Virus record (IMG/VR): IMGVR_UViG_3300033141_003971
Span: 1-20,623 of that record
Source: a virus
Length of the DNA stretch: 20,623 bases
Reading direction: 5' to 3' (one strand)
The notes below the pieces were generated by a model. That model was not told where the DNA came from. It was given only the letters and a program-made list of their open reading frames with translations, and did no database searches. Of this stretch, positions 3,636 to 19,571 are shown piece after piece (position 1 is the stretch's first letter; each line of letters starts with the position of its first letter). Position numbers and translations under genes: made by a program.

Positions 3636-4132
3636 ATCCACCACCCTCCTACGGTGATGTTGAGGTAGTTGAGCGCGGCCGAAATCTTGTACTCGATCGT
3701 GCGGCTGCTATCGACCGCCACGATGCAGTCATCCCTGTGCGTCCGGCTCTCGCCGTAGAACTTCAGGCCAGACACGTTGTAGGCGTTGCTGTTGCCGTTC
3801 TCGCGAAACAGGACTTCCTGCTGCTGTGCGACGTCGCCTTCGACGCGCAGGAGCACATGGCCGGCGCCCGCCGGGACGATGCTGCTCAGGTCCAGGTCGT
3901 GCCAAGCGTTGTCCGCCGTCAGATCCCCGATGGCCCAATCGGCGCTGGACGGGTCACCTCGGTCCACCAGCGTGGTGCCCGTCTCGTCGGTGAGGGCCGC
4001 CAGCGCCGCGTCGATCATGGTCTGGACCTCGTCGCGGGTGAGCGTCGCCAGGTTGGCGTAAACGTCCGCGAAGGCCCGGTCGAGCTGGCCGTCCTGCGGG
4101 AACTGCGCATCCGGAGGCCGCGGAAGACCCAT
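3632..4132 (-). CDS. Short tail fibre / virion surface protein with C-terminal beta domain
   Basis: The start is ATG 4132, which shares a TGATG with the stop of the nozzle gene; an upstream in-frame start at 4201 would run 70 bases into that gene. The 166-residue protein has a helical N-terminal part (FADVYANLATLTRDEVQTM, about residues 20-50), suited to attachment or trimerisation. The C-terminal all-beta part runs from WHDLDLSSIVPAGAGHVLLR through FRENGNSNAYNVSG to a WW-I end. That beta pattern recurs in phage fibre-like and surface proteins. I infer a host-facing protein at the short tail or nozzle. No enzymatic motif is visible. It overlaps the next gene by 4 nt. Confidence 0.6.
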   Translation of the reverse strand: MGLPRPPDAQFPQDGQLDRAFADVYANLATLTRDEVQTMIDAALAALTDETGTTLVDRGDPSSADWAIGDLTADNAWHDLDLSSIVPAGAGHVLLRVEGDVAQQQEVLFRENGNSNAYNVSGLKFYGESRTHRDDCIVAVDSSRTIEYKISAALNYLNITVGGWWI

Positions 4133-6669
4133 CAGGCTCCCCTCGCCGTCCGCAGGCGGTACTCCACCCGGATGTTCTCCAGGCGGAAGCCCTTCGCCCA
4201 CTCGCCCTTGATCTGCAGATACCAGCGCCGCGCCGCGTTCGTGCGCGCGGAGCTGTCGTACTCGTAGCCATTAGGCACACCGATCACATGGCCGTCCTGG
4301 GGGCACTCCGGTGTGGTCTCCCAGGCGTTGTTGCCGGCGACGGCCGAGTAGGCCGCGTCATCGTTGAGGTAGAGCTTCGGGCGGTAGGCGGCAGTGCCGT
4401 GCAGGTCCCAATCGCCGACCACCCAGATGGCGCCGGGGAGCAGCTCGTAGCCCGGCGGCGCCTGCGGCAGCAGGAAAGTGAGCGTCACCGGCGCGTAGAG
4501 GTCGCTGTGCGACGACCCCTCGCCGTCGTGGTTGGTGATCTCGGAGACGGGATGCAGGACCGTGATCTCCTGCGCGCCGCCGTCCTTCCAGGCGGTGCGG
4601 GTGAGGATGTGGGCCTGTTGTGTGCCCTCGTTGTAGGCCCGCAGCGCCACCGTTGTGGTGTCGGCGTCCTCGTCGTCCCAGGCCATGCGCGTCCAGCTTC
4701 CGCGCTCGGGGTAGTAGATACTCAGCCTGTCGCCCGGCCCGCGGGCGTAGAAGCGGTTGTTGTGGAAGGCGATGGAGTGGACATCCGCCGCGGCCCACGG
4801 CGACCGCCCGCCGAAGGGCACGATGCGGCTGATGCTGGTGCCGTCGTAGAACCAGAGGCCGTCGCGGGAGGCCCACAGGACGCCGCTCGGGCCGCTGGCG
4901 ACGGCGTCCGCCACGAGGCCGCCGACGTTGGGCTCCAGCACCTCCAACCGGAACTGCTGTGAGGCGTAGCCGCTCAGCACCCAGGTGGAGGTCTCCTTGA
5001 AGATGAGCAGTTGGCTCCGCCAGGACGCCAGGCCGACGATGGGCGAGTGGTCGCCCACCTCGACGAAGTTGACCCCCGGCCAGTAGTAGGGCTCGCCGAT
5101 GGGCGTGTAGAAGAGCACGTTGCCGTAGTAGCCGGGCTCCAGCGGGTCCTCCTCGTAGTCGGGCGAGCCCTCGGTGCAGCCTGCGGCGAAGAGGCGGTCG
5201 CCGTGGTGGTGGAGGATGGTCCCCTGCGGGGGCCGCGCGTGATCGAAGGCGATCTCCTCGCCCAGCGAGTAGGCCGAGAAGTTGTCCAGCAGCGTCGTGG
5301 CCGCCTGGAGGATGACGTCGGTGATGTCGTAGGTGCCCTTCTCCGTGTTCCCCGCCGCCCCGAAGGCGTTCATCAGGTGGATGTAGCGGAAGGTCGTGTC
5401 GTCCACGTCCTTAAGCTGACGCGAAGCAATCGGCACGCCCGAGTAATCGCTGTTGGTGTAGAGCTTGAAGTAGATCGTGGTCCCGACGCGCCCCCAACGC
5501 ACGTAGTACGTGGTGCCGAGCGACAGCGGCCCCCAGGCATCGACCTCGCTGCTGTCATGGTCCGTCAGCTCCAACAACAGGGCGCCGCCCACCTTCCAGA
5601 CTGAGAGCGATACGCCGGCGCTCCAGTTGTAGGACTTGTCCAGAACGCCGCTCACGCCGCCGAGCACCACCGCTGCGTCCGCCTCCATCGCGGTCGGCTT
5701 AAATGAGAGGCGGTGCTCGAAGTCGCCGATGTTGCCCGCGCCCTCATCCTTCGTGACATACGCCTCGTCGTTGCGCTGAAGGTCAACGGCGGCGATCTTA
5801 TTCGCCGTCACGGTCAGGCGCGCCTGAGTGTCCTTCTCTACCCAACCACTGGTCAGGTCCTCCGTCGCGCCCGCCGCGCTGCCCGCAGGCAGGAGCGTGG
5901 GAAGGCGCTGGAAGTTGGCCCCGCGCGCGCCGCTCTCCAGGCTCGACGTGTAGGCCCGGTAGATGCGCTTGGGGTAGGCCCCCGTGATGCCGCTCAGGTC
6001 CACCGCGCCGCCGTCCGTGGTGATCTGCACGTCCACCACCGGCGACGGCATACTCTCCTGCCCGGTCTCCGGGTCGTAGTAGGTGTAGTAGTAGCTGTAG
6101 GTCCCCACCGGGAGGTCACCCGTGGTGGCGCTGGCCCCCGGCGCCGACGAGGGCGCCGCGATCCCCACCACCCGCAGCGTCGCCCCGTCCCAGACCAGCG
6201 CCTCCGTGTCGCCGTCCACCAGGATGAAAAGCTCGTTGCGCACCTGCACCACCGCCGCCGCCCCCTCGTCGCCGAGCAGCGCCACCGCCGCGCTCTCGGT
6301 CGTCACCTGCGCCCACGACTTGGCCGAGAAGATGCGGTAGCCGTAATCCCACTGCGTCGGCGACGGGCTCGACCAGTCCAGCCCGTCGAGCTTGTACAGC
6401 TTCCCCGTCCCGCTGTCGTCCACGAAGGCCAGGAGCTGGTTGTAATCGTCCGTGACGAACTCCACCAGCGTCTTGATGATCCCCACGCCGGGACCGTGGA
6501 TGCGGAACTGGTTGCGCCCCCAGCGAATCTCGCCGCCGGCGGTGAAGATGACGCCCTCGGCGTCCACGAGCTGGTCCCCCGCGACCTCCTGTGGGTAGAG
6601 GTCGCTCGGGGGCAGGTTCAGCGGCGACCAGCCGCGCTGCCAGCGTTCCAATACTGCCGTCTCAGCCAC
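4132..6669 (-). CDS. Tail nozzle protein (beta-propeller type) with inserted Con A/LamG-like domain
   Basis: From GTG 6669 the protein is 845 residues; an in-frame TTG at 6732 would add 21 Arg/Gly-rich residues inside the preceding gene, and I prefer the GTG, which overlaps that gene's end by 8 nt and has GAGAGG upstream. The start LNLPPSDLYPQEVAGDQLVDAEGVIF, split here only in description, and later blades such as DNQLLAFVDD-like, ELFILVDGD, DRLFAAG, SQLLIFKETSTWVLSG, GVLWASRDGLWFYDG and NRFYARG follow the repeated blade pattern of podovirus nozzle proteins, which extend the adaptor and open for DNA exit. Between about residues 285 and 455 sits an extra beta module (LSLGTTYYVRWGRVGTTIYF) of concanavalin-like type. 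It directly follows the adaptor genes, which supports the role. The exact residue limits of blades are approximate. Confidence 0.7.
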   Translation of the reverse strand: MAETAVLERWQRGWSPLNLPPSDLYPQEVAGDQLVDAEGVIFTAGGEIRWGRNQFRIHGPGVGIIKTLVEFVTDDYNQLLAFVDDSGTGKLYKLDGLDWSSPSPTQWDYGYRIFSAKSWAQVTTESAAVALLGDEGAAAVVQVRNELFILVDGDTEALVWDGATLRVVGIAAPSSAPGASATTGDLPVGTYSYYYTYYDPETGQESMPSPVVDVQITTDGGAVDLSGITGAYPKRIYRAYTSSLESGARGANFQRLPTLLPAGSAAGATEDLTSGWVEKDTQARLTVTANKIAAVDLQRNDEAYVTKDEGAGNIGDFEHRLSFKPTAMEADAAVVLGGVSGVLDKSYNWSAGVSLSVWKVGGALLLELTDHDSSEVDAWGPLSLGTTYYVRWGRVGTTIYFKLYTNSDYSGVPIASRQLKDVDDTTFRYIHLMNAFGAAGNTEKGTYDITDVILQAATTLLDNFSAYSLGEEIAFDHARPPQGTILHHHGDRLFAAGCTEGSPDYEEDPLEPGYYGNVLFYTPIGEPYYWPGVNFVEVGDHSPIVGLASWRSQLLIFKETSTWVLSGYASQQFRLEVLEPNVGGLVADAVASGPSGVLWASRDGLWFYDGTSISRIVPFGGRSPWAAADVHSIAFHNNRFYARGPGDRLSIYYPERGSWTRMAWDDEDADTTTVALRAYNEGTQQAHILTRTAWKDGGAQEITVLHPVSEITNHDGEGSSHSDLYAPVTLTFLLPQAPPGYELLPGAIWVVGDWDLHGTAAYRPKLYLNDDAAYSAVAGNNAWETTPECPQDGHVIGVPNGYEYDSSARTNAARRWYLQIKGEWAKGFRLENIRVEYRLRTARGA

Positions 6670-6916
6670 GTCGCTGCCGCCTCTCGTTGCGCCGTCGCTC
6701 CGCCGCCTGGCGGGGTCCGTAATCGTCGGCAATGTCCACGGCCTCGCGCTCGATCTCCGCGATGCGCTCGCGGTCGATCCGCTGCTGCTTCGCGCGCCGC
6801 TCTTTGCCCTCGACGGTGGCCTGGTTGCGCACCATCTGTCTCACGCGCCGGTCGCGCTCGGCCAGCGCCTTGCGGAAGAGCTTCTCGCGCTTCTCAAGCT
6901 GCTGCCCCTCGCTCAT
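6662..6916 (-). CDS. Small highly charged helical protein, unknown function
   Basis: The 84-residue protein starts at ATG 6916, one base after the TGA of the third adaptor-type gene, with GGGAGG about 8 nt upstream. It is almost entirely Arg, Lys, Glu and Gln-rich helix (MSEGQQLEKREKLFRKALAE) with a very basic end (NERRQRRG). There is no hydrophobic core, Cys pair or known motif. It ends inside the first codons of the nozzle gene. Position between adaptor and nozzle suggests an accessory assembly factor or a minor connector peptide, but the function is unknown. An in-frame upstream start at 6976 is unlikely because it lies inside the adaptor gene with no SD. Confidence 0.65.
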   Translation of the reverse strand: MSEGQQLEKREKLFRKALAERDRRVRQMVRNQATVEGKERRAKQQRIDRERIAEIEREAVDIADDYGPRQAAERRRNERRQRRG

Positions 6917-6917
6917 G

Positions 6918-7571
6918 TCAGTCCTCCCGCAGGCCCGTAAGCCACGGGTCGCGCGCAATGTCGTCGTACGGGTCACGCCCGTGGTAGCGAGCGTTCATGT
7001 GGACGATGGCCTCGAGCCCGTACGCCTCCTGGGCCTCGGCCCGCTCCGGCTCATCCGCCGCCTCGTACGCAAGCTGCATCGCCAGGTCGATGATGGCGTT
7101 GTGGAAGTGCTCGGGGAGCTCCGGGTTGGTCTCGGCGTCGATCTCGGCGGGTGTCCGCACGTAGTAGAGCTCGTAGGTCTCGCTGTCGCCCTGCGTGACC
7201 GTCCCCACGTAAAAGACGATATCATCGTTCTCGATGACGTGGAATGGGTTCGTCTCCGAGGGCGTGATGTGGCTGTTGGGGTCCACCAGTTCGCGTATCT
7301 GGTCCTTCGATTTGCGCACGCTCTCGATCCCCTTGTACAGCACCAGCCGATCGTACGCAAAGTCGTCGGGCAGGTCGTACTCCTCCTGGTCCGCGACCAG
7401 CGTCTGCACGTCGATGTCGGTGAGCGCCCAGAGGGTCGGGATCGACGCCTCGGCGGCGATGCGCCGCTGCGCCATCGAGAGGTACAGGTAGAGCTCGGTA
7501 TCGCCCCAGCGGTCCTCGCCGAGGTCGGCGAGCAGGGTTCTCAGGAGCCATTTCATCTGTACGCTGGTCAT
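6918..7571 (-). CDS. Head-to-tail adaptor-fold protein (third of three)
   Basis: A 217-residue protein with the layout of podovirus connector proteins. It has an N-terminal helical part with a YLYLSMAQRRIAAEA helix, then a beta core (VQTLVADQEEYDLPDDFAYDR), then a strand that ends YELYYVRTPAE. A final helix pair follows (HFHNAIIDLAMQLAYEAADEPERA). The same order is seen in the two preceding genes, so I call it a paralogue or fold relative. Family members dock under the portal as a ring and link it to the nozzle. ATG 7571 has GGGAGG 10 nt upstream and overlaps nothing; the upstream TGA is at 7580-7578. The match resembles the SU10-adaptor type, recalled from known families, not searched. Confidence 0.65.
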   Translation of the reverse strand: MTSVQMKWLLRTLLADLGEDRWGDTELYLYLSMAQRRIAAEASIPTLWALTDIDVQTLVADQEEYDLPDDFAYDRLVLYKGIESVRKSKDQIRELVDPNSHITPSETNPFHVIENDDIVFYVGTVTQGDSETYELYYVRTPAEIDAETNPELPEHFHNAIIDLAMQLAYEAADEPERAEAQEAYGLEAIVHMNARYHGRDPYDDIARDPWLTGLRED

Positions 7572-7577
7572 CGCTCA

Positions 7578-8240
7578 TCAGCCTCCCACATCGCCGGGTT
7601 CGTCGTCGCGCGGGATCACGCCGGCCTCGCTGAAGCGGGCGTTGGCCTTCTGGGCGCGCCGGAGGAACTTGCGCCGCAGGCGGTCGTACTCGGCCCACCT
7701 GCCCTTCGCGCAGCGCGCCAGAGCCACCGCGAGGTCCACCATCAGGCCGTGCCACCGCACGTTGATCTGCGGGTCCACGTCCGTGCTCATCGCTGTCGGG
7801 TTCTGCGTGTAGTGCAGCTCGTAGGGGTCGGTCGAGGACGGGTCGCCTACCTCGACATGAAAGCGCACCGCCACGTCCGTCGTGTTGTAGAAGAGCCAGT
7901 AGTACGGCTCGGTCGCGCCGGGCGCCACGTAGATGTTGTCGGTGAAGGCGTCACGCTCGGGCACCGGCCAGCGCCGCGCCGGGATCTTGTTGCTGCCAAT
8001 CGCCAGCAGCCGGACGCGCTGAAAGTTGGCGGGCAGCGGCGCTCGTGAGGCCACCAGGTTCCCCGACGCCACCGGCGTGAGCTCCGGGATCGCCGCGTCG
8101 TTGAAGCGCACCGCCAGGTCGCGCTGGGCGAAGTTGAGGTAGCCGATGATCTCCTCGTCCTCCACGCCCTGCTTGGAGGCCTCACCCAGGCGCATCCGCA
8201 CCTGGTCAACGAGCTTGTCTGTGATGTCGCCAGCAGCCAT
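7578..8240 (-). CDS. Head-to-tail adaptor-fold protein (second of three)
   Basis: The 220-residue protein begins at ATG 8240 with GAGGTGA just upstream, 11 nt after the previous stop. Its N-terminal helices include EDEEIIGYLNFAQRDLAVRF (about residues 27-46), matching the N-x-AQ-x-x-L helix of adaptor proteins. A beta core with PLPANFQRVRLLAIG and YELHYTQNP follows. The C-terminal helix VDLAVALARCAKGRWAEYDR closes the fold. There is no cofactor or catalytic motif. Function is inferred as a connector ring or a second layer of adaptors between portal and nozzle. A short proline- and arginine-rich frame that starts on the TGATG at its stop is a shadow, not a gene. Confidence 0.65.
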   Translation of the reverse strand: MAAGDITDKLVDQVRMRLGEASKQGVEDEEIIGYLNFAQRDLAVRFNDAAIPELTPVASGNLVASRAPLPANFQRVRLLAIGSNKIPARRWPVPERDAFTDNIYVAPGATEPYYWLFYNTTDVAVRFHVEVGDPSSTDPYELHYTQNPTAMSTDVDPQINVRWHGLMVDLAVALARCAKGRWAEYDRLRRKFLRRAQKANARFSEAGVIPRDDEPGDVGG

Positions 8241-8251
8241 GTCTTTTCACC

Positions 8252-9250
8252 TCAGATGCCCTCGTGGATCATGCCGCCCGAGCCGCCGCGCTCGATGGCC
8301 GCCTCGCGCCGCTCGGCCTGGATATGCGCGTCCACGAAGCCCTCGATGTTCAGCGCCTCCTGGGCGTGGCCCATGAAGCGGTACGCTCGGGCCGTCGCCA
8401 GATGCACGATGTAGTCATGCAGGTGGGCGGGGAAGCCCGGCACGTCGTCATCGCCCGTCAGGTCGTACGGCTCCATGCAGCCGTAGATGGTTGCCGTGGC
8501 GACCGTGGCGTCCGGCGTCGGGTACAGGTGCAGCTTGTCGCCGTGGTGGACGTAGTGCGTGGGGCGGCCCGTGACGGACGTGCTGTTGAACTTGGCGCCC
8601 CACTCGTCCAGAGAGAGGTGCTTGAGCTTGAAGCGGTTGCCGCTGTCGTCCTGGTACTCCACCAGGAGCCACTCGCGCACCCGCGACGGGATGAGGTAGC
8701 GATGCTCGTCCTCGACCACGTCGAAGGTGTACTCGCAGCGCGTCCAGCGCAGCCGCCGGTCGAGCTCCTGGTAGGCGTTGTTGAGCCACTGCTTGAGCAG
8801 GCTCGGTGGGAACAGGCGCGCGCTCTCCGGCCACTCGCGCCGCACTATCATGCTCAGCTCGCTGTGCATTTTCGCCAGGCTCAGGCCCGCCGGCGGCGCG
8901 TCCGCGCTCTCGCAGGTGAGCACCTGGGAGGCGGCCACGTAGACCGTCCCCAGGAAGCCGACCGGGTTCTCGTCGGAGACGCCCACCGTGGAGAAGACGG
9001 CGTACTCGGTATTCATCTCGAAGCCGTTCTCCTCGGTGATGTCGAACTCGACCTCGTAGAGGCCGGGGGCGTAGCTGGCGTGGGAGAGGAGCGCCGGGGT
9101 GGGCGTGACGACGGGAGCCGCGTCGGCGGCGGCGCCGCACTTGCGCACGTAGGCCGCCGGGCCGGCGCCGTCCGCGCCGGAGCCGCCGGGGTCGTTGAGG
9201 GCCATGTGGAAGCGGGCGGTGGTGCCCAGCCGCCGGGTCTTGTGGATCAC
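8252..9250 (-). CDS. Ig-like domain fused to head-to-tail adaptor domain (first of three)
   Basis: A 332-residue, two-part protein. Residues 1 to about 110 look like an Ig/BppU-type beta sandwich of the kind common in phage virion proteins (YAPGLYEVEFDITEENGFEM, then TEYAVFSTVGVSD and GFLGTVYVAAS). From about residue 125 the adaptor fold appears: LLKQWLNNAYQELDRRLRW helix, DEHRYLIPSRVREWLLVEY strands, KLHLYPTPDATVATATIYG and the closing helix HDYIVHLATARAYRFMG. This part closely follows classical short-tail adaptor layout. GTG 9250 makes a GTGA overlap with the lectin gene before it and has GAGGTGA upstream. I infer that it binds the portal directly, with the Ig domain facing outward. The domain fusion is a sequence-based reading. 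Confidence 0.7.
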   Translation of the reverse strand: MIHKTRRLGTTARFHMALNDPGGSGADGAGPAAYVRKCGAAADAAPVVTPTPALLSHASYAPGLYEVEFDITEENGFEMNTEYAVFSTVGVSDENPVGFLGTVYVAASQVLTCESADAPPAGLSLAKMHSELSMIVRREWPESARLFPPSLLKQWLNNAYQELDRRLRWTRCEYTFDVVEDEHRYLIPSRVREWLLVEYQDDSGNRFKLKHLSLDEWGAKFNSTSVTGRPTHYVHHGDKLHLYPTPDATVATATIYGCMEPYDLTGDDDVPGFPAHLHDYIVHLATARAYRFMGHAQEALNIEGFVDAHIQAERREAAIERGGSGGMIHEGI

Positions 9251-10362
9251 AGCGTCTCACCTCTTACAAGGACGTGCCCCAGGTGGACTGTCCGCAGGAG
9301 TGGCCGCGGCCCCCCCCCCACCGCCTCCAGCGCCCCCGCCGTCGCCCACGTCGCGGGGTCTGACAACATGAGATCGCTTATCGCTATCTCATCATCACTC
9401 AATCGCCGATCCCACCACGCCGCCCACATGATCTTTCCATCGAGGCTCTCAGTGTTGTCGCGCCCACCAAGAAACCAGCGATCTCCATACAGTGCATCAC
9501 CATCTGGGATCGCCTTCGTCGTAGTCCACCGGTTGCCTCGATGATCAACCGTCGCCTGCTTCGCTGCGCCATCCCAACGCAACTGAGTAATGAGGAGCTC
9601 ATCTACTACAACTTGATTGCTCTTGTCTATACGCCACTCGGTTGTATCGCCCTTAGCCCCGGCCTGCAGCGACGGGTTGGCATCGTCTCCTCGAATAGTG
9701 GTGAAGTTACTGTTGCTGGTGCGATTCGCCACCACGTTCTGATTGTTACCATATGAGCCAACATCCGGCATCCACACAACCTGAACGGTATGGTCGTCGG
9801 CACCCTTCCACGCCATGTTGCTGGGAATAGGTGAGGCGAACCGCACTGGCCACTGAACTCCAGGAGCTACGTGCAGACACTCATGAAACGCACCATCACT
9901 AGTACTCTCCCAGGTTGCGTTGACGATTGCTCCGTCGTTGCCGTATGTGGTTCGGTCTCCGACAGTCGCGCCAGTACCCTCTTCAATGGGTACTATGCAA
10001 GCCAACGTCGATACGTAGGTGTTCTGCTTCCACGCCGCGCTAGGAGCGCTCGCCCCGGCGTTGCCCACCCATCCCCAGATGCGCGTGTCGACGCCCGATG
10101 CCAGCACCGGCACGCGCACGTAGAGGTGCGCCTCCTGACCCGCCACGTCCAGCCGTGGATCGTCGTAGTACAGCTCACTGCTCCCCGCCTCGTCGCTGCT
10201 GAACCGCAGGTCCGCGCCCGTGGCCTGCATCTGCGCCCACGCGGTCGCGGGGAAGTGCGCGTCGGTCAGGAGGCATGGCCAGTCCGTGATAGGCGAGCCG
10301 ATCACGCTGTCCGCGTTGATGTCGATGGCCCACTTGTGGGTCCAGCCGTCCGGGAAGCTCAT
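9247..10362 (-). CDS. DUF2341 + LamG/Con A-like virion lectin
   Basis: Residues 1 to about 115 match the DUF2341 pattern (HKWAIDINADSVIGSPITDW, TGADLRFSSDEAGSSELYYDD). Residues about 118-345 form a LamG/concanavalin-like jelly roll with the typical opening VPIEEGTGATVGDRTTYGND and closing strand GKIMWAAWWDRRLSDDEI. DUF2341 with LamG is a frequent pairing in secreted and phage-associated glycan-binding proteins. Here it sits among structural genes and before the adaptors, so I infer a head or tail decoration that binds host surface sugar. The LamG half is about 54% G+C by my counts against about 70% in the N-terminal half. A run of ten G on the coding strand (9319-9310) lies near the 3' end. 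ATG 10362 is 4 nt after the previous stop. Confidence 0.7.
   Translation of the reverse strand: MSFPDGWTHKWAIDINADSVIGSPITDWPCLLTDAHFPATAWAQMQATGADLRFSSDEAGSSELYYDDPRLDVAGQEAHLYVRVPVLASGVDTRIWGWVGNAGASAPSAAWKQNTYVSTLACIVPIEEGTGATVGDRTTYGNDGAIVNATWESTSDGAFHECLHVAPGVQWPVRFASPIPSNMAWKGADDHTVQVVWMPDVGSYGNNQNVVANRTSNSNFTTIRGDDANPSLQAGAKGDTTEWRIDKSNQVVVDELLITQLRWDGAAKQATVDHRGNRWTTTKAIPDGDALYGDRWFLGGRDNTESLDGKIMWAAWWDRRLSDDEIAISDLMLSDPATWATAGALEAVGGGPRPLLRTVHLGHVLVRGETL
9310..9319. repeat. Ten-base C/G homopolymer inside lectin gene
   Basis: Ten C on the plus strand, read as ten G in the lectin coding strand, encode part of V-G-G-G-P about 18 codons before the stop. Loss of one G would read into a different C-terminus ending in TAA at about 9261-9259; gain of one would end in the TGA within AGAGGTGA. 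All three products have similar length. This is the type of tract that slips in replication. Confidence 0.8.
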
Positions 10363-15147: not shown

Positions 15148-15259
15148 GCGCCGTCATTCGGGCCGGGCCGGCGGACCGGGGGCACTCGAAACGCTTCTCG
15201 CCGGGCACGGCCATGAGCAGGCCGTTGCCGCAGTCGTGGCAGACGCCCCAGCTCTCCAT
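15131..15259 (-). CDS. 42-residue Cys-containing peptide, zinc-ribbon-like remnant
   Basis: ATG 15259 shares a TGATG with the portal stop, a typical coupled start, and the frame ends at TGA 15133-15131. The peptide begins MESWGVCHDCGNGLLMAVPG and contains a first CxxC knuckle at Cys7 and Cys10, then FECPRS at residues 25-30. A normal zinc ribbon would have CPxC at the second knuckle; here the last position is Ser, encoded TCC, one base from the Cys codon TGC. It may be a degenerate or three-ligand zinc finger. Portal-adjacent small ribbon proteins occur in phages, but no role is known to me. The capsid promoter overlaps its 3' end. Confidence 0.55.
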   Translation of the reverse strand: MESWGVCHDCGNGLLMAVPGEKRFECPRSAGPARMTALDRDF

Positions 15260-17151
15260 CAGAGGCCCCCCTCGCCCGCCAGGAACATGCGCAGCAGCTC
15301 CTGCGCGTCCGCGTCCATGCCCGCCCCCAGGCCCGGCACCTGCTCCAGCGTCAGGCCCTGTCTCTTCGCCGCGTCGATGTCGCGCATGATGAACGGGTCC
15401 ACCACCGCCGCGAGCTGGTCGCGCATCATCTCCATCATCTGGGCGTTCTCCGCCTCCGCCGCCATCTCTCCGGTCACCTCCTGCGGGACCATCTGCGGCG
15501 CGGCCGCGACAGGGCCGCCCGCACCATCGGCGCCGGGCGCCTCGGCGGCCATCTGCGCCTCGGCCGCGGCCTGCTGGGCCATGTCGGCCTCGGCCTGGGC
15601 CGCCGCCTCCTGGCCCGCCACCTGCGCCCCGACGACCGCCTGATAGCGTTGCACGACCTTGTGCTTGTCCGGGAAGTTCACGGCATTCAGCAGCTCCGGC
15701 AGGAGCAGCTCCCACCCGACGATCTGCGCTATCGCCAGCGCCGTCTCGGCCTCCGCCGCCTCGCTGCGCGGCAGCCGCCCGTCCGCCTGCACCAGCACCT
15801 GGAACGGGTACGGGTTCTTGCCCTGCTCGCTTCCCAGCCGCGCCGGGTCCATCCGCAGAACCTGCGGCCTGCCCGCGTTGACCACCGGCATGGCGCGCTG
15901 CTCGGCGTAGTTGCGCTGCATCAGCTCCAGCAGCATCTGCCCCACCTGCCCCCAGGCGTTGCCCCAGAACATCGCCGGACCCGCCTGCCGCGTGCGGCCC
16001 GCCCGCTGGAGCACCTCCAGCGAGATACCCGAGGTGAGGCCCTTCGGCCGTATGCCGCGCTCCACTTCCTGCACGCCGCTGAGCACGTCGAGGCTTGCCT
16101 GCAGCGCCTGCAGCTCGTGGAAGACCTCCGGCGGGAGCGTCGGCGGGACCCAGGGGTCCGCCCTGCCGTCCGGCGTCTTCACCACCGTCCTCTGGCCCGG
16201 CGAGAGGTTGAGCACCAGGTTGGCGTCGTCGGTAATGATCGCCGGGTTGACGTAGAAGCGGAACCAGGTGGCGAGGCGCGTGCGGAGCTTGTTGATCTCG
16301 TCCTGGGAGTATCTGAGCTGCGGGACGATGCTCTGTGACCAGAAGTGGTTCTGGTCGGGCCACATCTGGAAGTGGACGAGCGGGATGACCTCGCCGGGGA
16401 TGGGCGACGGGCGTTGCACGATCAGCTGGCCGCCGGTGTAGATGGTCTGCCGTGCCCCGAAGAGGTCGTAGACCTCCCAGACCTCGACCTGCTCGACGGC
16501 GCCGCCGCCACGCGGCGCGATGATCGACTTCGGCGGGATGTCCTGCGTGTCGGTGACCGGCTGCGCCCGCTCCCAATCAATGGTCTCCTCGCCGAAGAGG
16601 CGCTTCGCCAGGGCCTTCCCGTAGACGTTCTTGATAGCGACGAACTCGGCGTCGTTGAGCGACTTGGCGGTGGGGTCGGGGTAGATGAGAAAGGGGCTCA
16701 CGGCGGAGAGGGCGGCGTCCTCCTGGCGGGCGGACCAGTGCGGCTTGAGGAAGCCGTTGCCCAGCCGCGTCACGTCCGTGTAGGTCTGCCACTGCGCCAG
16801 GGCCAGGTTCTTCACGGAGTAGAAGTGCTGCATCCAGTCGGTGAGGTCCTCGGCGAAGGGCTCCTGCGCCTCGTCGAGCGCCGCGACGTACCACGGTGGC
16901 GTCGCGAGCACGAGCATCGCCACCATCGTGTCCAGGAGCGCCTTCACGTAATTGATGACGGTCAGGTCGGTCCTGCACTCGGCGGGGAGCCCTTCGAGGA
17001 GGCCGTCCTTCTGGCCCGCGCCGTCCACGTACTCGACGTGGCCGCGCCAGTCGTCATGCCTGGCCTTCGCGGGGGCCTGGGCGGCCTGGACCTTCTCGTG
17101 GACCTCGCGCACCGCCGGGTCGGACAGGTCGTAATCCATCGCGCTCACCAC
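15259..17151 (-). CDS. Portal protein
   Basis: A 630-residue protein read from GTG 17151, whose SD GGAGAGGAG ends 6 nt upstream; an ATG four codons later (17139) is too far from it. Early helices (VINYVKALLDTMVAMLVLAT) are followed by TDWMQHFYSVKN and LGNGFLKPHW. The SPFLIYPDPTAKSLNDAEFV segment is typical of podovirus-type portals, which also carry a long helical barrel region: VQEVERGIRPKGLTSGISLE, then MFWGNAWGQVGQMLLELMQR. The C-terminus is Ala/Gln/Glu-rich helix (AAQAEADMAQQAAAEAQMAA). A dodecameric ring at one capsid vertex, the site of packaging and adaptor binding, is the known role. It follows the terminase, separated by the inserted methyltransferase gene, and is translationally coupled to it. 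Confidence 0.8.
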   Translation of the reverse strand: MVSAMDYDLSDPAVREVHEKVQAAQAPAKARHDDWRGHVEYVDGAGQKDGLLEGLPAECRTDLTVINYVKALLDTMVAMLVLATPPWYVAALDEAQEPFAEDLTDWMQHFYSVKNLALAQWQTYTDVTRLGNGFLKPHWSARQEDAALSAVSPFLIYPDPTAKSLNDAEFVAIKNVYGKALAKRLFGEETIDWERAQPVTDTQDIPPKSIIAPRGGGAVEQVEVWEVYDLFGARQTIYTGGQLIVQRPSPIPGEVIPLVHFQMWPDQNHFWSQSIVPQLRYSQDEINKLRTRLATWFRFYVNPAIITDDANLVLNLSPGQRTVVKTPDGRADPWVPPTLPPEVFHELQALQASLDVLSGVQEVERGIRPKGLTSGISLEVLQRAGRTRQAGPAMFWGNAWGQVGQMLLELMQRNYAEQRAMPVVNAGRPQVLRMDPARLGSEQGKNPYPFQVLVQADGRLPRSEAAEAETALAIAQIVGWELLLPELLNAVNFPDKHKVVQRYQAVVGAQVAGQEAAAQAEADMAQQAAAEAQMAAEAPGADGAGGPVAAAPQMVPQEVTGEMAAEAENAQMMEMMRDQLAAVVDPFIMRDIDAAKRQGLTLEQVPGLGAGMDADAQELLRMFLAGEGGL

Positions 17152-17179
17152 CAGTCACTCCTCTCCGGCTGCTCGTCGG
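17145..17179. repeat. 35-bp direct repeat, copy at methyltransferase/portal junction
   Basis: This copy is identical over 35 bases to 17871-17905, and the flanking bases differ at both sides. On the minus strand it carries the last 35 nt before and into the portal start: GGAGAGGAG, TGACTG and GTGGTGA. Here it encodes the C-terminal RRAAGEE and stop of the methyltransferase and then the portal GTG start. Confidence 0.95.
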
Positions 17180-17877
17180 AGTAATGGTACCATCCGTTCG
17201 TCACCGAACAGGCCGCCGATCTGTATCACCTGCTCCAGCCGGGTGGCCGCCTGTTGACAGAACTTTTCGTCGATCTCTATCCCGATTGCACCACGGCCCG
17301 TGAGCATCGCGGCCAACAGCGTGGTCCCGGCGCCCGCAAACGGGTCGAGGATCATGTCTTGTGGCTCGCTGAAACGGTCCAACAGCCACCGGACGTGAGA
17401 GAGGCGACGGCTACAGGGGTGGCTGTCTCTGTGCTTGCTCCGCGATGCGTCGGTATGCCAGACACGACCAGGCACGACATGGTAGCCGGGCCTGCTGGCC
17501 GGAGGCGGGCCGAACATGTAGCCCACGTCGAAGCTGTACAAAATCCGCCCCTTGTAGTGGGGCCGGGCGTAGTCGAGCGTGGCGGCTCGGAAGAAGGGGA
17601 AGCGGTCGCGAGGAACGGCTGCCAAGAAGCGCGGATCGCTGTCGGCTCCCAGGTGGACCATGAGGCGCAGCACACTCTTTGGTAGGAACTCACATACCTC
17701 TCCGAACAGGGCCTCTGGATTCTCCGCTCCAGCCATCTCTGGCAGTGCGTTCGGCCATACCGGGTCCGCATAACAGGTCTGTGCTTGAGTCAAACAGCCA
17801 GGGCCGAGCATATCGCGGCAGTCGGCATGGTAGAGTGTGAGCATGTGTTCCTCGTCGCTCCAATAGGGTTTCACCAC
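17155..17877 (-). CDS. Beta-class DNA (N4-cytosine or N6-adenine) methyltransferase
   Basis: A 240-residue protein from GTG 17877, which overlaps the terminase stop; an internal ATG at 17844 is an alternative. Motif IV is ADPVWPN (residues 37-43), a variant of DPPY/W with Val in the second position. Motif I, the S-adenosylmethionine-binding loop, is DPFAGAGTT (178-186) and is followed by GIEID (199-203). Since the catalytic motif precedes the cofactor motif, the order is of the beta class. SHPCSRRLSHVRWLLDRFS matches the conserved HP...R helix region. There is no restriction enzyme nearby. I infer an orphan enzyme that modifies phage DNA against host restriction, or marks DNA at packaging. 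A sampled G+C near 57-62% is lower than the portal and terminase. Confidence 0.85.
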   Translation of the reverse strand: MVKPYWSDEEHMLTLYHADCRDMLGPGCLTQAQTCYADPVWPNALPEMAGAENPEALFGEVCEFLPKSVLRLMVHLGADSDPRFLAAVPRDRFPFFRAATLDYARPHYKGRILYSFDVGYMFGPPPASRPGYHVVPGRVWHTDASRSKHRDSHPCSRRLSHVRWLLDRFSEPQDMILDPFAGAGTTLLAAMLTGRGAIGIEIDEKFCQQAATRLEQVIQIGGLFGDERMVPLLRRAAGEE

Positions 17878-17905
17878 CAGTCACTCCTCTCCGGCTGCTC
17901 GTCGG
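17871..17905. repeat. 35-bp direct repeat, copy at terminase/methyltransferase junction
   Basis: Identical to 17145-17179. Here it encodes the terminase end (DEQPERSDWW and TGA), plus the SD GGAGAGGAG at 17892-17884 and the GTGGTG start of the methyltransferase. The two copies are 726 bp apart, start to start, and exactly bracket the methyltransferase gene. Confidence 0.95.
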
Positions 17906-19571
17906 CGGGCGTCCGGGGCCGCCCCAACTGCTCCAGCGTCAGGCCCGGCTTGGAGCCGAGCTCCCGCACATGGCGCACCTTCTCCCGCTCCACGTCCGGG
18001 CTCGTCATCGCCTCGCGGAAGCCATACTGCATCCCCAGCCGCACCCCGTAGACCGCCGCGTCAAGCAGGTCATCGAGCTTGCCGTCCGGGAACTTCTTCT
18101 GCTGCGTCTCGTACGCCCCGCCCCGCAGCTCCGGGCTATGGACGATGCGCCCGTCCTCATACAGCGGCCCCAGCGTCGTCCGTATCCGCTGCTCCTTCTG
18201 CGTGTTGCCGCCGGGGATCGGCAGCAGCTTCATCGGCGCCTCCCGGCGCCTCATCTCGGCGCGTATCTGCTGCTCCATGCTGTGGCCCCCCTGCCCCACG
18301 CGCTCCAGCCCCACCACCAGCGGCCGGAAGCGCCAGAACGTGTCGAAGATGCCGCTGATGTACTGCCCCTCGCTCTTGAACTCGTCCGCCTCGTAGAGCA
18401 GGTGGAAGTTCATCTCCTCGTCCACGCCCACCACCATGATCGCCGGGTGACTCGTGCCCGTCCCCGACGCCGGATCGAGCCCCATGTAGCACGTCAGCGG
18501 CGGGCGCTCCCGAGCCCCCACGTAGCGCACGTCGCCCACATTCAGGCCCCGCGCGCCCTTGTGGCTCGTGTCCAGGTGGTACTGGCAGTAGAACAGGTAG
18601 CCCGACATCTGCCGCCGCTTGGCCTCGTACCGCTCCTCGTCCCACTCGTCAGGGTGCGCGTACGCGCCCTCAATCTCGGAGTGAGTCTCGATCTTCCCCC
18701 CCGCCCCCACCGCCAGCCACGTCCGCCCCCGCACCGGCTGGATCGTCACCTGCAGGTCCTGCGGGTAGTAGCTGTCCAGAAGATGCGCGTAGAGGTCGAA
18801 GTCGCTGTACAGCGTGCCCGTGAACAGCAACTCGTCCGTCTGCAGCGTCGGCCAGATGTTGTCGATCCGCCGCCGCAGGAACCGCTGGTCCACCTCGCTG
18901 TCGGCGTTGTCCTCGTTCACAAGGTCGTCCAGCGTGATCGTCTGCACGTGCCGCCCCGCCATCGACTGCTTGATCCGCCGCAACTCGAACGTCGGGCTCC
19001 CGTGCTGCGCGCTCCGACCCCACACGCTCATGCTCGTGTCCGACCAATCGTAGCTCGACGGCATCAGCCGCGGATACAGGACGTGAATCTGCTCCCGGTT
19101 TTCAATGAGCTTCCGCCGCTCGCGCATCCGCTGAATACCCAGCGCCGGCTCCCACGTCACCAGCACCTCGTCATACCGCTCCGGGTCCCGCGCCGCACGC
19201 CACAACGGCCGCGCCGTCCCGAACAGCGTCGTCTTGAACGCCTCCCGATACCACAGCACCAGCGTCGGGCGCTCCACCTCCTGCAGCGCGTACGTCTGAC
19301 GCCAGTGAAACGACCCCCACCCCCCGAACAGGTCATACCCAAGCACGAACACCGTGAAGAAGTGCAACGACCCGTCAGACAGACCCCGACAAGCCTCCCG
19401 CTCCTCCCCCGTGAGCTCCCCAGGCTCAAGCACCAGCCTCGTCAGCATCCGGTCCAGGTCCAAGCTCCTCAATCGCCGCCCGAGCCTCGGCAAGTAGCTC
19501 TGGATGTGCCTCGCCGTCCTCGGACCCACCCCCCGCGACCTCAGCCGCTCCTCCGTCACCTCTGCGCTCAC
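17871..19571 (-). CDS. Terminase large subunit (packaging ATPase and nuclease)
   Basis: Read from GTG 19571 (GAAGG about 9 nt upstream) it has 566 residues. The N-terminal 30 contain RSRGVGPRTARHIQSYL, a helix-hairpin-helix-like DNA-binding pattern. The ATPase part has LWYREAFKTTLFG with Lys113 as Walker A; the Gly that normally precedes Lys is Phe. TITLDDLVNE gives the Walker B pair near Asp215-Asp216. The nuclease part has acidic residues at LDPASG (Asp366), GLERVG (Glu423) and KLDDLLDAAVYG (Asp500/501/504). It drives DNA into the procapsid through the portal and cuts the concatemer. The gene overlaps the small terminase by 146 nt; ATG 19448 would reduce this to 23 nt but lacks a clear SD and drops the N-terminal motif. 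Confidence 0.85.
   Translation of the reverse strand: MSAEVTEERLRSRGVGPRTARHIQSYLPRLGRRLRSLDLDRMLTRLVLEPGELTGEEREACRGLSDGSLHFFTVFVLGYDLFGGWGSFHWRQTYALQEVERPTLVLWYREAFKTTLFGTARPLWRAARDPERYDEVLVTWEPALGIQRMRERRKLIENREQIHVLYPRLMPSSYDWSDTSMSVWGRSAQHGSPTFELRRIKQSMAGRHVQTITLDDLVNEDNADSEVDQRFLRRRIDNIWPTLQTDELLFTGTLYSDFDLYAHLLDSYYPQDLQVTIQPVRGRTWLAVGAGGKIETHSEIEGAYAHPDEWDEERYEAKRRQMSGYLFYCQYHLDTSHKGARGLNVGDVRYVGARERPPLTCYMGLDPASGTGTSHPAIMVVGVDEEMNFHLLYEADEFKSEGQYISGIFDTFWRFRPLVVGLERVGQGGHSMEQQIRAEMRRREAPMKLLPIPGGNTQKEQRIRTTLGPLYEDGRIVHSPELRGGAYETQQKKFPDGKLDDLLDAAVYGVRLGMQYGFREAMTSPDVEREKVRHVRELGSKPGLTLEQLGRPRTPADEQPERSDWW

Follow-up and report, generated by a model that had tools for sequence, protein, structure and literature searches.

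A DNA methyltransferase gene bracketed by a 35-bp direct repeat between the terminase and portal genes of a metagenomic phage

Results and Discussion

A 35-bp repeat on either side of a methyltransferase gene

We report a phage locus in which a DNA methyltransferase gene, situated between the genes for the terminase large subunit and the portal protein, is bracketed by an exact 35-bp direct repeat that carries the stop, Shine-Dalgarno and start signals of the junction. We consider it very probable that the gene was recently inserted there together with a duplication of the terminase-portal junction; as an event in this phage's own lineage this is well supported but not proven. The locus is a clean example of a known route of gene gain in phages and not a new system.

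The window, by which we mean the whole stretch of DNA analysed, is a virus record from a metagenome, 20,623 bases long. Its large minus-strand genes resemble a head and tail module from a short-tailed type of phage, with genes for a terminase, a P22-like portal and a capsid-like protein, for three SU10-type adaptor proteins and for an internal virion protein. The three proteins matching the SU10_adaptor family are encoded in tandem on the minus strand (6918-7571, 7578-8240 and 8252-9250), the first two being 25% identical to each other; three such paralogues in tandem seem unusual. The features of the locus, in gene order, are:

17871..19571, minus strand: terminase large subunit (phrog_38), the upstream neighbour
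17871..17905, minus strand: repeat copy one, 35 bp, with the terminase codons for DEQPERSDWW and the stop, the Shine-Dalgarno GGAGAGGAG and the methyltransferase start GTGGTG
17155..17877, minus strand: DNA methyltransferase (N6_N4_Mtase; DPVWPN phage subfamily), the proposed cargo; likely start at 17874, GC3 0.73
17145..17179, minus strand: repeat copy two, 35 bp, identical, with the methyltransferase codons for RRAAGEE and the stop (in another frame), the Shine-Dalgarno and the portal start GTGGTG
15259..17151, minus strand: portal protein (P22_portal, phrog_156), the downstream neighbour

The repeat reads CCGACGAGCAGCCGGAGAGGAGTGACTGGTGGTGA on the minus strand, and its copies at 17145-17179 and 17871-17905 match perfectly, so that the original prediction, an error-free 35-bp repeat in direct orientation where the methyltransferase meets the terminase on one side and the portal on the other, was right in both position and identity. 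The 40-bp flanks of the two copies are unrelated, with 30% and 17.5% identity on either side. No other exact repeat in the window comes near this length, the runner-up being 19 bp, and 35 bp is far beyond chance, as the longest repeats in third-order Markov shuffles (n=30) measured 14-18 bp. It is present twice only in the record of 20,623 bases, which may be a fragment. The 19-bp repeat (15340-15358 and 17928-17946) codes for GLTLEQ in the portal and in the terminase, within the C-terminal tail of each, and is borderline against the shuffles, the largest value of which was 18.

Reading the junctions 5' to 3' on the minus strand, we found that the terminase ends with PADEQPERSDWW and its stop codon within copy one, which also holds the GTGGTG at the methyltransferase start. 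The methyltransferase in turn ends with LRRAAGEE and a stop in copy two, in a frame differing from that of the terminase, its last seven residues and stop codon being supplied by the repeat; the portal start GTGGTGAGC sits 3 nt past this stop, and in both copies the Shine-Dalgarno GGAGAGGAG lies 6 nt ahead of the GTG. This reading confirmed the contents foreseen for the repeat (terminase C-terminus, Shine-Dalgarno and GTGGTG in copy one) as well as the double role of copy two, which closes the methyltransferase in another frame and opens the portal. As the copies are read in different frames, their identity is not explicable by common protein coding, while a duplication explains it. When one copy and the methyltransferase are removed in silico, the terminase end and the portal start both remain intact and overlap in GTGA.

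The methyltransferase is a foreign member of a phage family

The methyltransferase matches PF01555 (N4/N6 DNA methyltransferase) with 57.7 bits against a Pfam gathering cut-off of 26.7. Its cofactor motif DPFAGAGTT (DPFxGxGTT) and catalytic motif ADPVWPN, with DPVW as in the subfamily, align with those of 10 homologues, which constitute a DPVWPN-motif phage subfamily from ten viral contigs retrieved with a designed pattern. The best-scoring homologue, L102, is 45% identical over nearly the full length and shares the start and the motifs; in cellular genomes and plasmids the searches gave remote domain matches at most, or none. Homology to the family starts at the second GTG (17874), within the final 4 nt of the repeat, and because the homologues begin M-K-P-Y-Y this second GTG is likely the true start. 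Genes of the family mostly open with NTGAAACC or similar, and several overlap the preceding gene by a 4-bp NTGA stop/start. The L102 homologue also has a long C-terminal tail, and hence the tail of the methyltransferase is by itself no proof of read-through into the repeat. The enzyme probably modifies the phage DNA against host restriction.

By composition the gene is foreign to its surroundings. Its G+C content of 62.2% (GC3 72.6%) compares with 67.6% (92.2%) for the terminase and 69.9% (94.9%) for the portal, in agreement with the lower G+C sampled initially, and its synonymous codons have a mean log probability of -1.24, versus -0.79 for the terminase and -0.70 for the portal. In this locus, a short direct repeat without mismatches thus flanks a segment on each side, at gene boundaries, and the segment is foreign by GC3 and synonymous codon usage, as in repeat-bracketed cargo, for which we treat foreign composition as a sign of recent gain and not as a strict requirement. 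A second compositionally foreign gene lies inside the structural module (9247-10362, minus strand; GC3 0.70, synonymous-codon score -1.25); it has a weak match to DUF2341, and its ends are without a long exact repeat.

A proposed history of the insertion and its alternatives

The observed repeat, reading frames, foreign composition and family affiliation, along with the ancestral-type junction in other phages, can be accommodated in a single history. The ancestor would have had the terminase directly followed by the portal, the stop of the one overlapping the start of the other (TGGTGGTGA). Into this junction illegitimate recombination, probably through copy-choice or end-joining, would then have brought an orphan DNA-methyltransferase gene of another phage. 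The exit from the junction may have taken place at the TGA of the start region, matching the NTGAAACC start of the donor gene; as the second GTG and one further A close the repeat (GTGA), crossing over at the common TGA would fit. Re-entry 35 bp upstream would have doubled the 35-bp junction segment, such that one copy preserved the terminase end and gave the methyltransferase its Shine-Dalgarno and start, and the other provided a new methyltransferase 3' end (RRAAGEE and the stop) and left the portal with its own Shine-Dalgarno and start. Translation of the three genes would presumably be coupled. Of the original proposal that the methyltransferase was gained by junction duplication, the part that rests on the frames, the codon usage and the reconstructed empty junction stands, while a single-copy site in the phage's own lineage did not come to light, gain being the likelier polarity there and ongoing loss between the repeats the other.

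The same final structure would result from homologous recombination with a sister phage that already held the repeat-gene-repeat arrangement, or from a single crossover with a circular or terminally repeated one-copy donor. This is a variant of the junction-duplication history, with which its probability overlaps, and it differs in that the duplication would have arisen elsewhere or earlier; we regard it as possible but distinctly the less probable course, since the donor, itself unseen, would have to carry these 35 bp too, and a search with the 22-bp core of the repeat matched no other viral contig. An assembly artefact, in which two genomes were joined through a loop at a repeat about as long as a k-mer, is conceivable for a metagenome record with a repeat short enough to mislead small k-mers, but the flanks are unique and the reading frames coherent at both copies, and so good a fit of stop and start is not expected of an artefact; of all the alternatives we give this one the least credence.

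A repeat maintained as a regulatory or translation signal, and not left behind by an insertion, is hardly more plausible. Both places do have a strong Shine-Dalgarno and start, and start-associated repeats do occur in Cluster K and EF phages, but here there are just two occurrences flanking one foreign gene, the identity runs far upstream of the Shine-Dalgarno through sequence that is coding in two frames, and no other gene start within the window carries the repeat. Equally improbable, in our view, is an insertion of the transposon-like or homing type in which a 35-bp target site was duplicated: HNH-type endonucleases do occupy the terminase-portal junction in Pseudomonas phage PA11 and locus L047 (see below), but the insert has no transposase or endonuclease and the ends of the unit lack terminal inverted repeats, which likewise sets it apart from transposable elements with target-site duplications. 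A 35-bp target duplication would moreover be unusual. Nor does the gene resemble a moron with its own promoter and terminator, for it has no non-coding flank; no promoter for the unit was found in a search covering sigma-70-like types, and the sole terminator-like site lies inside the methyltransferase gene, at about chance level.

Direct terminase-portal junctions in other phages

No near relative of the phage, with or without the methyltransferase gene, was recovered by DNA among 50,697 phage records, by terminase, portal and capsid protein scans of viral contigs, or with a specific portal pattern; the closest terminase in viral contigs is ~24% identical. Among distant relatives, the next long gene after the terminase stop, taken as the portal in this count, lies less than 60 bp from the terminase in 44 of 74 loci, 23 of which show a 1- or 4-bp overlap. 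The junction is likewise direct in 12 of the 13 loci of the L030 clade and, with the exception of PA11, in all named Zobellviridae examined. By analogy with these three sets, direct adjacency of terminase and portal is likely the ancestral state. The alignment of related junctions by which the original prediction was to be checked has thus yielded the direct 1- and 4-bp overlaps in distant relatives, but not in a near one.

Other genes at terminase-portal junctions

The best other case of cargo beside a duplicated portal start is offered by PA11 in comparison with phage O4. PA11 has an HNH-type endonuclease gene (gp048) between terminase and portal, which is missing from O4 and HHBS10_2 (94-98% identical) and from DMTU_1. 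The start region that originally belonged to the portal (ATAATGTCAACTAAA, MSTK), including the Shine-Dalgarno, is now found on the endonuclease gene, and the PA11 portal has a second, similar start region (ATAATGTCTGTAAAA, MSVK); the duplicated piece measures ~15 bp with 4 mismatches. A related HNH-type protein (40% identity over 103 residues) is encoded at the junction of L047, where the insert ends in GRSRR and a stop, residues identical to those at the end of the preceding terminase. In L023 the junction holds a gene of 133 residues that shares GGAAGAAGATA with the terminase at their 3' ends, and the terminase is 91.5% identical to that of L030, the junction of which is empty. PA11/O4 and L023/L030 are independent pairs of occupied and empty terminase-portal junctions. 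Furthermore, L013 has a Methyltransf_11 protein at this position. The pre-portal insert of L023 and a small post-portal gene share 21 bp, AATGGCTAAGAAACCAGTAAA, at their starts (1797-1817 and 3959-3979), which gives the impression of a single start region put to use a second time; both genes are missing from the direct relative L030.

We examined 22 other occupied terminase-portal junctions for a repeat, comparing each with junction pairs drawn at random from its own locus. Values below 0.05 were obtained for PA11 (p=0.04) and L012 (p=0.02) only, with a shared stretch of 8-11 bp, followed by L068 (0.07), L023 (0.09) and L047 (0.13); the repeats in L023 and L047 are suggestive, and in the remaining occupied junctions of this set no convincing shared repeat above chance was found. 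As one value below 0.05 is expected by chance in 22 tests, we do not claim a general cassette mechanism. The idea of an insertion hot spot with a ready-made translational cassette is accordingly weakly supported: other cargo does occur at the junction (PA11, L023, L047 and L013), but most of the 22 cases show no repeat above chance. The terminase-portal junction is used repeatedly, and a duplicated junction is readable in few cases; that the neighbours are intact may mean no more than that viable insertions were selected. The apparent inserts of L036, L038 and L084 were rejected as cargo, being partly the second half of a split terminase; in these loci the terminase apparently consists of two open reading frames with a small gene between them, and L084 has an additional gene of 265 residues there.

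It has long been asked how phages fit new genes into tightly packed operons with coupled translation and leave these operons working; at most mosaic boundaries the traces of the event have aged beyond reading. At the methyltransferase locus the event appears to have been caught while its scar is still perfect, and the duplicated piece holds just what the newcomer and both neighbours need. Together with PA11/O4 and L023/L030 this makes three readable cases at one kind of junction. The locus also leads to a prediction of precise loss through the repeat: if the proposed history is true, annealing between the copies would delete the methyltransferase precisely and restore the terminase-portal overlap. 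One might speculate, though we think it rather doubtful, that phages repeatedly add single genes to tightly coupled essential operons by duplicating a stop/Shine-Dalgarno/start junction, with repeat annealing reversing the addition and the population holding both forms.

Comparison with known systems

A precedent in the literature is mycobacteriophage LRRHood, in which four cargo genes (genes 43-46, 1.35 kb), including a repressor, lie between 29-bp direct repeats; the repeat is located at a gene end and is single-copy in relatives without the cargo, and both acquisition through recombination within the repeat and loss by way of it have been discussed (PMC3029335). Both loci have cargo bracketed by a short direct repeat at a gene boundary, but LRRHood has four genes and relatives with an empty site, whereas here a single gene lies between terminase and portal, and the repeat is slightly longer and supplies start and stop signals. 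The PA11 gp048 gene resembles the methyltransferase in taking over the portal's original Shine-Dalgarno, start and first codons at the same kind of junction, but differs in its ~15-bp duplication with 4 mismatches, its endonuclease cargo and its distantly related group (Zobellviridae). The HrdP HNH endonucleases of Skunavirus are likewise accessory genes at the terminase-portal junction; they occur in all members studied and a packaging role has been proposed for them, and in contrast to the present locus the main text mentions no direct repeat or duplication (PMC12724721).

The Start Associated Sequences of Cluster K and EF phages, conserved over clusters as many dispersed 13-bp copies (PMC3203893, PMC7302621), share with the 35-bp repeat that they surround a Shine-Dalgarno and start codon and that an upstream stop can fall inside them. 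Their many copies genome-wide contrast with the two copies around one gene in our record, which may be a fragment, and the 35-bp repeat does not fit among them. Compared with the orphan N4/N6 DPVWPN methyltransferases of phages, the enzyme studied here has the same start and motifs, but its last residues and stop would derive from the duplicated junction. A dispersed start-associated hairpin was seen in L092 (IMGVR_UViG_3300009012_000004), one of the contigs with a homologous methyltransferase: on the reverse complement (5106-8100), a palindromic repeat, GGGAGCGGG-ttaa-CCCGCTCCCAAAATGAAT, exact or variant, precedes many successive gene starts, often with the stop of the upstream gene in its loop.
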